Assembly: GCA_025357215.1 (NCBI GenBank)
Contig: JANXPR010000126.1
Coordinates: 1 to 42,568 of the forward strand
Length of the DNA stretch: 42,568 nt
Origin: Acidobacteriaceae bacterium
Lineage (GTDB): Bacteria > Acidobacteriota > Terriglobia > Terriglobales > Acidobacteriaceae
Direction: 5' to 3'
Program-made: the position numbers and the translations under genes
In this document: piece by piece, positions 1-42,568 of the stretch
How positions within the stretch are numbered: the stretch's first letter is position 1
Layout of the letters: each line of letters opens with the position of its first letter
The notes under the pieces: generated by a model
Seen by the model: the letters and a program-made list of their open reading frames with translations, nothing else
Database searches by the model: none
Told to the model about the DNA's origin: nothing

Positions 1-141
1 ACAGTGGCGATCGGCTACGATCTAGGTTACGTCACGGTCAACGAGTGCATCCAGGATTGGACCGGCATCGTGGACGCCGTGACCATCAACGAAATGATCC
101 TCGGGGTCGGGCTGACCGGCGAGCGGGCACATATCTTCGTG
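1..141. repeat. Terminal direct repeat (copy 1), identical to 42428-42568
   Basis: Bases 1-141 (acagtggcgatcggctacg...atatcttcgtg) read identically at 42428-42568; a single ORF continues across the junction. Confidence 0.98.
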
Positions 142-37525: not shown

Positions 37526-37753
37526 TCCTTTGTTATCGTTAGTGAATTGAGAGAATATTCCATATATGTTAGTTATGCGAACGGAGAGCGTGCGTAAGTA
37601 GGGCTTACCCATTCTCGCGCGCGCGTGCGGCGGAGGCGCCCTGGGTCCGGGCCAGACGTAGACAGGCGCCCCCCTGCCTGCACCCCAAAAATCCGTACCG
37701 AGACGCACCTTTATCCCGTTGACATTTTCCCTGCGCCATTCAATCTGCGGTGC

Positions 37754-38395
37754 ATGTCCTACGCTCATAATTTCAATGATCTCGGGGGGCAGGTGTTTGG
37801 TTGCCTGACCGTTGAGGCTGAGACTGACGGGCGCCATAGCGGGCATGTGTTGTGGCGGTGCCGGTGTGAGTGCGGGGCGGAGGCGGCGTGGCTGGCTGAG
37901 AAGCTGCGCCGGCTCCCGAAATGTTGGCACCGGCCGTTCTGGTCGATTGCTGGATCGAGGTGCTGGGACGCGATGATCCATCGCTGCTACAATCCGAAGC
38001 ACATCAACTATCCGAGCTACGGCGGGCGCGGCATTACGGTGTGCGATCGTTGGCGGGCGAGCTTCCACGATTTCATTGCCGACATGGGGCCGCGGCCGAG
38101 TGCCCGGCACTCCATCGATCGGTGGCCGGACCAGCAAGGCAACTACGAGCCTGGGAATTGCCGGTGGGCCACGCCGCCGGAGCAGAGCCGCAACCGAACC
38201 GACAACGTGTCCGTCGAATATCAGGGCGAGACCGTGCTGGTGGTGGATCTGGCGGCGCGGCTCGGGTTGAACTATGCGGCGCTCAGGGGCCGCCTCCGGA
38301 TGGGCTGGGGGCTCGAGCGCGCCATTACGCAGCCGGTGCGGCGGTACGCTTCCTTTGCGGCCATCTTTGGCCCCGTTATGGAGAAATCCCCATGA
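37754..38395 (+). CDS. HNH endonuclease (phage/homing type)
   Basis: HRCYNPKHINYPSYGGRGITVCDRWRASFHDFIADMGPRPSARHSIDRWPDQQGNYEPGNCRWATPPEQSRNR. Confidence 0.85.
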   Translation: MSYAHNFNDLGGQVFGCLTVEAETDGRHSGHVLWRCRCECGAEAAWLAEKLRRLPKCWHRPFWSIAGSRCWDAMIHRCYNPKHINYPSYGGRGITVCDRWRASFHDFIADMGPRPSARHSIDRWPDQQGNYEPGNCRWATPPEQSRNRTDNVSVEYQGETVLVVDLAARLGLNYAALRGRLRMGWGLERAITQPVRRYASFAAIFGPVMEKSP

Positions 38396-38523
38396 GTAAG
38401 GATTGGCACGATCTCGACACCGGGCCGACGCTGGGGAGCGTGCTGCGGGCGTTTGGGTTTTTGCTCGGCGCCGCGGTCGCGTTGATCGTCGTGTTCGGGA
38501 TTGCGGCGTTGGTGCTGCGGTGA
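38392..38523 (+). CDS. 43-aa single-TM protein
   Basis: ATGA overlap; MSKDWHDLDTGPTLGSVLRAFGFLLGAAVALIVVFGIAALVLR. Confidence 0.55.
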   Translation: MSKDWHDLDTGPTLGSVLRAFGFLLGAAVALIVVFGIAALVLR

Positions 38524-38669
38524 TCAGCTGGGTGCGCTACGTCCATGAGGGCAGGGTCGATCGCTACCTCGAGCTCGGTTGGATGATCCGCGATTGCATG
38601 TACCGCGGCGAGTTCATGGTGATGCTGATGGCGTGGCCGTGCGGCTGTCCGATGGTGGAGCCAAAGTAA
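38520..38669 (+). CDS. 49-aa small protein
   Basis: GTGA overlap; VISWVRYVHEGRVDRYLELGWMIRDCMYRGEFMVMLMAWPCGCPMVEPK. Confidence 0.55.
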   Translation: MISWVRYVHEGRVDRYLELGWMIRDCMYRGEFMVMLMAWPCGCPMVEPK

Positions 38670-38678
38670 TGAACGAAG

Positions 38679-39131
38679 CATGCTTATCCGGTTGACGCAC
38701 ACAAACGCGCGGACCTACTAGATGTTGATGGAGAATAACGATGTCGAAATTTGACAACGTGTCGTGCAGTCAATGTGGACTGGATTTTGGCCCCGGCGAT
38801 CACGGCTATTCGCGCTGTCGCGATCACATGAGGAAAGCGCCAACCGAATATGTGGATATTGTTTTCGACGGGCCGCCAGGGCCAGTGTCCGGACGTTTTA
38901 TCGAGGTTGAGAACGATCAAGGTGTGAGCATTAATTTTGGCGAATGGGTGTGCCGTCCTGATGGATACTGGACACTTCGGATATGGGAGCAACGTCACAC
39001 TCATGTTGCTGGAACGACGGTCGGAAAGGACATTGATGAATGTGCTAGGTGTGGCCGTGACATTCGTCATTCTGTCCATGCCAGTCAGTAACACAAGATG
39101 TGGGACTGTGTGCGTCAACCGGATAAGCATG
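38679..39131. mobile_element. 453-bp transposase-less insertion cassette (MITE/MIC-like)
   Basis: 25-bp perfect TIRs 38679-38703 (catgcttatccggttgacgcacaca) and 39107-39131 (reverse complement); 8-bp direct repeats gaacgaag at 38671-38678 and 39132-39139. Confidence 0.92.
38741..39091 (+). CDS. Cassette cargo: zinc-ribbon-like protein with phage-type DGPPGPVSGRFIEVEN domain
   Basis: 116 aa; CSQCG...C, CARCG...H pairs; IVFDGPPGPVSGRFIEVENDQGVSINFGEWVCRPDGYWTLRI. Confidence 0.75.
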   Translation: MSKFDNVSCSQCGLDFGPGDHGYSRCRDHMRKAPTEYVDIVFDGPPGPVSGRFIEVENDQGVSINFGEWVCRPDGYWTLRIWEQRHTHVAGTTVGKDIDECARCGRDIRHSVHASQ

Positions 39132-39248
39132 GAACGAAGATAAGTTGACGCGGGCGGAGAGGATCAGGCTTGAGGCGCTGGCGCGCGTTCAAGGTATGGC
39201 CAGCATCACGCCGAATTCCATCAATGAAATGCTGGAGAGGCTACGGTA

Positions 39249-39265
39249 GTGTCAGGGATTGACAC
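39249..39265. promoter_or_regulatory. Palindromic operator site 3: GTGTCA-gggat-TGACAC
   Basis: Same TGTCA-N5-TGACA core and spacing as sites at 28839 and 40453. Confidence 0.6.
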
Positions 39266-41273: not shown

Positions 41274-42320
41274 ATGCCTGCCGTGATCGATGATTTCTTG
41301 CCGGCGGATGCCTACCGCGAGCTCCGCGAGTACGTGCAATCGCAGCCAATGCGGTACGGTGCCAAGTCGAACAGTCAAACAGACCCTCATGGGCACTGGA
41401 GTTGGAAGCCGATCCACGACAACCAGAAGAATCTCGCGGATCTGACTCTGACGCTGCCGCCCTTGCTGTTGCGGACCTTTAACCGCGTAAAGCTGCACGC
41501 CGCACTCGGGCAAGATCCGGTGGTGATTCGCTGCTACGCGAACGGCTACACCTACGGCACTGACGGATATTTCCACACCGACAGCGATCGGCACGACGAA
41601 AAAACCGTGATCCTGTTCATGTGCGAAAAGTGGGATCCGGATTGGGCCGGCGAGACCGTATACGGTAAGCCGGAGGACGGGGCCGTCCTTCCGTACCCCA
41701 ACCGCGCCCTGATCATTGAATCGAACCAACCCCACGCCGCCCGCGCGGTCTCGCGCAAATGCACGGCGCTGCGCACCACCCTCATGTTCAAGACCCGGCC
41801 CAGGCGATCTGAGGGATTTGAACGCCTAAGCGAATGGCTGGTCGCCAAGGGGGCGCTGAAATTCAAGCACGCCAAAGGCACCCTGCACGATCACCTGTGC
41901 CGAGTGTTTCAGCTGCTCTATGATCGTGGTCATGGTGGCATCGATGTGTTCTACGCCGGCGGGCTGCATAGCATTTATGGAACCAATGCGTATCAGTCTC
42001 AGCTGATTGTCCCAACCCCGATCACCCGCGGCGAGGTAGCGGATCGCTTTGGCAAGGAAGCCGAGTCGCTAGCTTATTTGTTTTCGTGTGTCGACCGACC
42101 CGGGACGCTGGAAAGTCCCGCGTGGAGCTCGCCGGAGGAAAGCCACCTCCTGATGCGGCACGATCAGAAAATGAGCGTAAGCAAAGACCAGCTTCGTAAT
42201 CTCCGCCTGATCGAGTGTGCCAACCTCGCGGATCAGGATTCCCTGACACCAGAAAAATGGCCGGTGCTGCACAGTATTTGGAAACTGCAAGGCATTTGGA
42301 ATCAGAAAGGAACCTCATGA
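41274..42320 (+). CDS. 2OG-Fe(II) oxygenase fused to an HD-like (DUF6817-type) domain
   Basis: YFHTDSD (HxD) ... NQPHAARAVSRKCTALRTTLMFK distal His/Arg; C-terminal HDHLCRVFQLLYDRGHGGIDVFYAGGLHSIYGTNAY...GKEAESLAYLFSCVDR. Confidence 0.8.
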   Translation: MPAVIDDFLPADAYRELREYVQSQPMRYGAKSNSQTDPHGHWSWKPIHDNQKNLADLTLTLPPLLLRTFNRVKLHAALGQDPVVIRCYANGYTYGTDGYFHTDSDRHDEKTVILFMCEKWDPDWAGETVYGKPEDGAVLPYPNRALIIESNQPHAARAVSRKCTALRTTLMFKTRPRRSEGFERLSEWLVAKGALKFKHAKGTLHDHLCRVFQLLYDRGHGGIDVFYAGGLHSIYGTNAYQSQLIVPTPITRGEVADRFGKEAESLAYLFSCVDRPGTLESPAWSSPEESHLLMRHDQKMSVSKDQLRNLRLIECANLADQDSLTPEKWPVLHSIWKLQGIWNQKGTS

Positions 42321-42568
42321 TCTCCCCCAAAGCGGTCTCCTTCATCATCGCACAGGAAGATGGCAGCGAGAGCTATTACGACCGCACGGAGGAGCATTTC
42401 GATTGGCCGGGCGGCGCTTCCGGGCCGACAGTGGCGATCGGCTACGATCTAGGTTACGTCACGGTCAACGAGTGCATCCAGGATTGGACCGGCATCGTGG
42501 ACGCCGTGACCATCAACGAAATGATCCTCGGGGTCGGGCTGACCGGCGAGCGGGCACATATCTTCGTG
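42317..42568 (+). CDS. Endolysin N-terminal part (continues at position 1)
   Basis: ATGA overlap with oxygenase; reads in frame through the repeat into 1-942. Confidence 0.75.
   Translation, partial: MISPKAVSFIIAQEDGSESYYDRTEEHFDWPGGASGPTVAIGYDLGYVTVNECIQDWTGIVDAVTINEMILGVGLTGERAHIFV
42428..42568. repeat. Terminal direct repeat (copy 2)
   Basis: Exact copy of 1-141; indicates a circular contig. Confidence 0.98.

Follow-up and report, generated by a model that had tools for sequence, protein, structure and literature searches.

The cassette and the phage that carries it

The window, i.e. the whole stretch of 42,568 nucleotides that was analysed, is a phage contig as judged from its genes for terminase-like, major head, RecT and RecE-like proteins, and because of an exact 141-bp terminal repeat (window positions 1-141 and 42428-42568) it probably represents the whole circular genome of a phage (42,427 bp) and not part of the bacterial chromosome of its bin. 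Next to an HNH gene it harbours an element of 453 bp (38679-39131), whose 25-bp ends form perfect inverted repeats with 403 nt between the arms. The features of the locus are the following:

37625-38395: HNH gene beside the cassette, upstream
38523-38669, + strand: small upstream ORF of 48 aa, its stop overlapping the start of the interrupted ORF
38669-38678, + strand: 5' segment of the 39-codon ORF that the element splits, the ATG overlapping the upstream TAA
38671-38678, no strand: left copy of the target-site duplication, GAACGAAG, 8 bp (from sequence)
38679-38703, + strand: left terminal inverted repeat, CATGCTTATCCGGTTGACGCACACA (from sequence), consisting of an outer part of 15 nt, CATGCTTATCCGGTT, near-invariant family-wide, and a variable inner block, GACGCACACA
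38692-38721, + strand: putative promoter TTGACG-N18-TACTAG, beginning within the left repeat (from sequence)
38722-38754, + strand: short leader ORF with the predicted product MLMENNDVEI, overlapping the cargo start
38741-39091, + strand: cargo gene for a protein of 116 aa with Cys pairs (ORF and PHROG match)
39107-39131, - strand: right terminal inverted repeat, identical to the left one in reverse complement (100% complementary; from sequence)
39132-39139, no strand: right copy of the target-site duplication, GAACGAAG (from sequence)
39140-39249, + strand: 3' segment of the 39-codon ORF that the element splits

The perfect inverted repeats at 38679-38703 and 39107-39131 and the 8-bp direct repeat abutting them, as reported in a preliminary description of this DNA, are exact, and at up to three mismatches the 25-mer has just two matches within the window, with 0.00 expected from 100 shuffles. 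That the cassette holds no transposase, only the 116-aa protein with its Cys pairs, is likewise borne out by ORF and profile scans of the 453 bp, and a search of the entire contig revealed no IS1595-type transposase either. Deletion in silico of the element together with one copy of the repeat reproduces the uninterrupted ORF of 39 codons (MNEDKLTRAERIRLEALARVQGMASITPNSINEMLERLR followed by a stop) with its ATG overlapping the upstream TAA that had been described; in the occupied state this putative frame stops after 8 codons.

The search for related phages with an empty 39-codon gene, which had been recommended in the same description, was unsuccessful. No homologue of the restored putative ORF was found at the loci of the relatives or by tblastn in phages, and both the cassette ends and the ORF are absent from all 40 fetched relatives of a neighbouring ATPase gene. 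As the relatives of the phage that lack the cassette thus also lack the interrupted ORF, none of these 40 offers an orthologous empty site for the insertion in the window. In the case of another insertion (L014 compared to L025), the target has a paralogous copy that is uninterrupted. L119 compared to L051 was also considered as an empty site and was rejected, L119 having 82 other bases at the respective place.

The C-terminal half of the cargo protein (residues 36-83) matches phrog_28893 (E 1e-17), a family of unassigned function, and a relative of the protein is encoded at 48 viral loci, so that the earlier designation of this half as a common phage accessory domain holds. The closest relative, a phage gene at locus L279, has no ends of this type. 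Elsewhere on the contig, the 348-aa protein encoded at 41274-42320 is named 'DNA endonuclease V' in PHROGs, a name that looks doubtful as Pfam gives DUF6817 and a weak match to 2OG-Fe(II) oxygenases.

A family of cassettes in viral contigs

An exact 20-mer of the end occurs in 12 stretches of IMG/VR and a looser end pattern in at least 120. Since 9 of the 11 exact-20-mer loci fitting the looser pattern were recaptured among 120 stretches, 111 of them new, the total number of IMG/VR stretches carrying ends of the window type can be estimated at about 147. Pairing based on the ends alone yielded, among the matches listed, 89 distinct elements of 207 to 2150 bp, of which 67 are flanked by a perfect 8-bp duplication, compared to only two of 890 controls in which the right side had been shifted; about a quarter of the end pairs in this list have no duplication. 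With 71 of 97 elements among the matches listed having a longest exact duplication of exactly 8, the length distribution peaks sharply at this value. The duplications are AT-rich (36% G + C as compared to 57% in the flanks) and more palindromic than the flanking 8-mers (1.44 vs. 1.02 matching pairs, reached in none of 5000 resamplings).

Within the ends, conservation is near-complete over the outer 15 nt and moderate in an inner block (positions 18-24), from which we infer that the outer part may be the site of transposase action and the inner part may serve its binding. The motif CTAGATGT of the putative promoter stretch lies near one end in 30 of 97 elements according to a motif count.

With respect to gene content, the 97 distinct elements among the matches listed comprise 82 with neither a transposase nor TnpB, 12 with a transposase of the IS1595 family and three with TnpB, so that 85 carry cargo other than an IS1595-family transposase. 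The expectation that these ends would elsewhere flank a transposase or other cargo thus proved right on both counts, with 12 and 85 of the listed elements, respectively.

DNA methyltransferases are enriched among the cassette cargos. Methyltransferase motifs were found in the main ORF of 10 of the 85 elements without an IS1595-family transposase but in none of 74 control ORFs (Fisher's exact test, p 0.002), where the controls are size-matched ORFs drawn by a mechanical rule from non-cassette parts of the same loci and may include non-genes, and where related cassettes are incompletely independent of each other. Among the matches listed, PHROG families of DNA methyltransferases were assigned to several cargos and to no control, and PADLOC recovered mainly methyltransferases. 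Other cargos match NADAR (two), RNA ligase (two) and Lar restriction alleviation proteins (one), and further matches are MazG-like, PAPS-reductase-like and to nucleoside deoxyribosyltransferases. Most cargos of the family, that of the window included, have no assigned function.

The TnpB-like genes reside within the same ends in place of other cargo (L097:654-1789, L110:9803-10938 and L122:3703-4850), and the two such elements that were scanned contain PF01385 and PF07282. None of the three has a target duplication, in contrast to 63 of the 82 other cassettes, and their TnpB-like genes apparently have N, N and D at the usual position of the RuvC-II glutamate. No Rfam match was found in L097, L122 or the window.

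The transposase of the full-length relatives

The transposase of the 12 phage elements has about 345 aa, and most of these elements also hold a passenger gene. PF12762 (DDE_Tnp_IS1595) and PF12760 were found in the two members scanned. In an alignment of the 12 proteins, which are 60-74% identical to the first sequence, D156, D236 and E299 are invariant, and we take these residues as the putative catalytic triad. A profile of the transposase found 79 viral loci, some of which had already been counted, and at 49 of them paired ends with a perfect 8-bp duplication are present; in 56 of 69 elements analysed at least 350 bp precede the transposase gene, leaving room for a passenger.

The nearest named insertion sequence is ISAcr1 from Acidiphilium, with 67% identity to the phage transposase, ends CTTGCCTATCCGGTTGACTCCCATA and CTTGCCTATCCGGTTGTTACCCACA (in short CTTGCCTATCCGGTT...) and an 8-bp duplication, GAATCAGC. 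The left ends of the autonomous phage elements, for example those of L198 and L211, differ from that of the window at only 2 of 25 positions. Full-length elements with ends of this kind plus an 8-bp duplication, for which a search had been advised, are thus found among the phage elements of IS1595 type, and comparison of the sequences supports an ISAcr1-like member of IS1595 as the cognate transposase family. No autonomous element with exactly the inner end sequence of the window was found, nor was a transposase-bearing element with the inner ends that are most frequent among the cassettes, the pair TAGACACACA/GCCACACACA (L004-L126); cross-recognition must therefore be assumed. A closely matching transposase is encoded in 12 of the 50 viral records bearing these ends, some of which may be fragments, so that the proportion of transposase-less records may be too high.

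Distribution in phages and bacteria

In the genomes of about 85,000 species, the stricter end pattern was found at just two loci. The broader pattern was found in 2 of 385 genomes in the class of locus L128 (titled Alphaproteobacteria), one of them being the genome of L128 itself, and in the bin of the window plus 1 of its 199 relatives. As the ends are nearly absent from the bacterial genomes scanned, ends of the CATGC type are essentially phage-borne in these collections. The bacterial ISAcr1 has ends that start with CTTGC, as against mostly CATGC in the phage relatives. ISAcr1 and L128 suggest alphaproteobacterial hosts. In the genome of L128, an alphaproteobacterial MAG (G051), the contigs C79, C192 and C209 bear these ends, C79 and the contig of viral locus L009 being one and the same.

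The host bin contains 13 matches to the IS1595 family, the best of which is 36% identical to the phage transposase, and ends of the window type are absent from those copies that were checked; two near-matches of the end pattern (C167 and C575) lie on contigs without such transposases. A search of 50,697 annotated phage records found neither the cassette nor a close transposase; the best transposase matches in them are only 27% identical, and the family is therefore apparently unrepresented there. Searches with cassette DNA gave only short matches inside the cargo domain in annotated phages and, in plasmids, only a short stretch of no evident meaning.

Signs of mobility within one population

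A cassette of 365 bp occurs in two phages (L020 and L052) with 98.1% identity at unrelated sites and with different duplications. Passengers also recur across types of elements: a C5-methylase gene is present in the transposase-bearing L031 as well as in the transposase-less L055, L065 and L080, and the passenger of L033 is seen again in the 319-bp element of L022. In a 117-kb phage contig (G010, IMGVR_UViG_3300050119_000104; loci L275-L278), 26 end matches accompany a single transposase, and at least five near-identical copies of 235-242 bp, two of them identical, are flanked by five different duplications. These MITE-like copies are a burst inside one phage genome.

Some elements vary at a single site. 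L119:5011-6983 is a composite cassette that combines several cargos, that of L038 among them, and with about 1973 bp occupies the place where L016 (68-807), L029 and L051 have a 740-bp element; the ends and one cargo are common to both, and an internal copy of the subterminal motif CTAGATGTTG divides two modules of the composite. L005:5707-6226 and L010:6322-7072 represent one cassette at one site, and their difference in length (520 vs. 751 bp) lies in the number of short repeats in the cargo gene.

Relation to known mobile elements

The window element has inverted repeats around a non-transposase gene and a target duplication, contains or adjoins no transposase, and has a related full-length element with similar ends. 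By the published sequence criteria (PMC3913671, PMC3129680) it would accordingly be classed as a mobile insertion cassette. The preliminary description had come to the same reading, which gains from the 97 elements with these ends among the matches listed and from the cassette found at differing sites. Beyond its notion of a phage moron packaged between transposon ends, what emerged is a large, mostly phage-borne population and not one moron.

The model case is MIC231 of Bacillus cereus, a mobile insertion cassette mobilised by IS231A (PMC3913671, PMC3129680). Both have a cargo gene replacing the transposase between IS ends, a target duplication and a related full IS. However, MIC231 belongs with the IS231 family and resides on bacterial replicons, whereas the family described here belongs with IS1595, resides in phage genomes and carries dozens of cargos, and its movement in trans is putative.

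Lacking a transposase of its own, the window element is not an insertion sequence but a non-autonomous derivative. Its autonomous phage relatives have the IS1595 hallmarks of PF12762 with PF12760 and a perfect 8-bp duplication (at 49 of 79 loci), and they share these domains, similar ends (TATCCGGTTGAC...) and the duplication length with ISAcr1. In contrast to them, ISAcr1 is a plain IS of 1080 bp, whereas the phage relatives mostly have passengers and the window element does without a transposase. The name transporter IS is given to IS1595 members that carry passengers (Siguier 2009, as far as cited in PMC3129680), which the phage family resembles in having passenger genes between IS1595 ends and room for them in most transposase-bearing elements; unlike transporter IS, most members of the family, the window element among them, are wholly without a transposase.

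Absence of a transposase and movement in trans are also traits of MITEs, and the 235-242-bp members in G010 fit the MITE definition, but the window element is not a MITE because it carries a protein-coding gene, the 116-aa cargo with its PHROG match. MITEs in viruses are reportedly the subject of a preprint by Nadal-Molero from 2024 (cited in PMC11389934), and its families may overlap with the cassettes described here.

MPME1 and MPME2 of mycobacteriophages are, according to the part of PMC3029335 considered, likewise ultra-small elements (MPME1, 439 bp); they have inverted repeats and target phage genes for insertion, but their insertion adds 6 bp of unknown origin by the left repeat, in contrast to the 8-bp duplication on both sides here, and no comparable cargo range is described in that part of the source. 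The inverted ends and the duplication also argue for transposition over an integron gene cassette with attC and integrase. In the open-access literature, no report of IS1595-type cassettes in phages was found. The phage cassette family is thus apparently unreported, the novelty lying in its scale, its phage-biased distribution and its cargo and not in the kind of element.

Mode of movement and alternative explanations

With a probability of roughly 0.93, the window element is a non-autonomous cassette of an ISAcr1-like branch of IS1595 that lives mainly in phages, moved by a transposase acting in trans, as we infer from homology. An IS1595-type DDE transposase whose gene lies on an autonomous element in a co-infecting phage, in a prophage or in the host would bind the ends, excise or copy the cassette and join it to an 8-bp staggered, AT-rich and weakly palindromic target in another phage genome, where the cassette might be kept because its gene helps the phage, as DNA methyltransferases and other likely counter-defence genes among the cargos may do.

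The alternative that survives best, unlikely as it is, assumes a decayed and no longer mobile relic, i.e. an IS1595 element with a passenger from which a deletion in this phage removed the transposase. The passengers common to cassettes and transposase-bearing elements make loss of the transposase a plausible origin, and a matching transposase is absent from the contig and a close one from the bin. However, the perfect 25-bp repeats together with the perfect 8-bp duplication suggest that the element inserted recently and as it now is; elements without a transposase are in the majority, 82 against 12 with one, among the matches listed; and the presence of a gene-bearing cassette at a second site with 98% identity is not what deletion in place would yield.

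It is highly improbable that homologous recombination or a homing-type nuclease moved the cassette and that the ends are mere recombination sites. The phage does encode RecT and RecE-like proteins, an HNH protein adjoins the cassette, and some elements without duplication could stem from recombination at their ends, but 8-bp duplications of varied sequence are not created in this way, and matching transposase-bearing elements exist. A chance or hairpin-type inverted repeat (a terminator or a pair of recombination sites) around an ordinary phage gene, for which one could cite cargo relatives such as L279 that are ordinary phage genes without these ends, was rejected as having a vanishingly small probability in view of the 67 of 89 pairs with a perfect duplication against 2 of 890 controls among the matches listed, the dozens of unrelated cargos with 8-bp duplications within these ends and the zero end matches expected by chance in the window.

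Implications for phage evolution

Given the mosaic nature of phage genomes, it is an old question by which route individual accessory genes, or 'morons', come to lie at non-homologous sites. The cassettes provide a concrete moron carrier with defined ends, a transposase family, an 8-bp signature and dozens of cargos in environmental viral contigs. More broadly, environmental phages, with hosts that are perhaps alphaproteobacterial, might draw on a pool of single-gene cassettes that ISAcr1-like transposases would move in trans during co-infection and that would spread counter-defence genes, a proposal to which we give even odds. If true, this pool would be a phage counterpart of integron cassettes, spreading DNA methyltransferases, NADAR, RNA ligase and Lar-type restriction alleviation genes, and counter-defence genes would thereby pass between otherwise unrelated phages. 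If the methyltransferase bias holds, the cassettes would offer a route for anti-restriction genes to circulate among phages.
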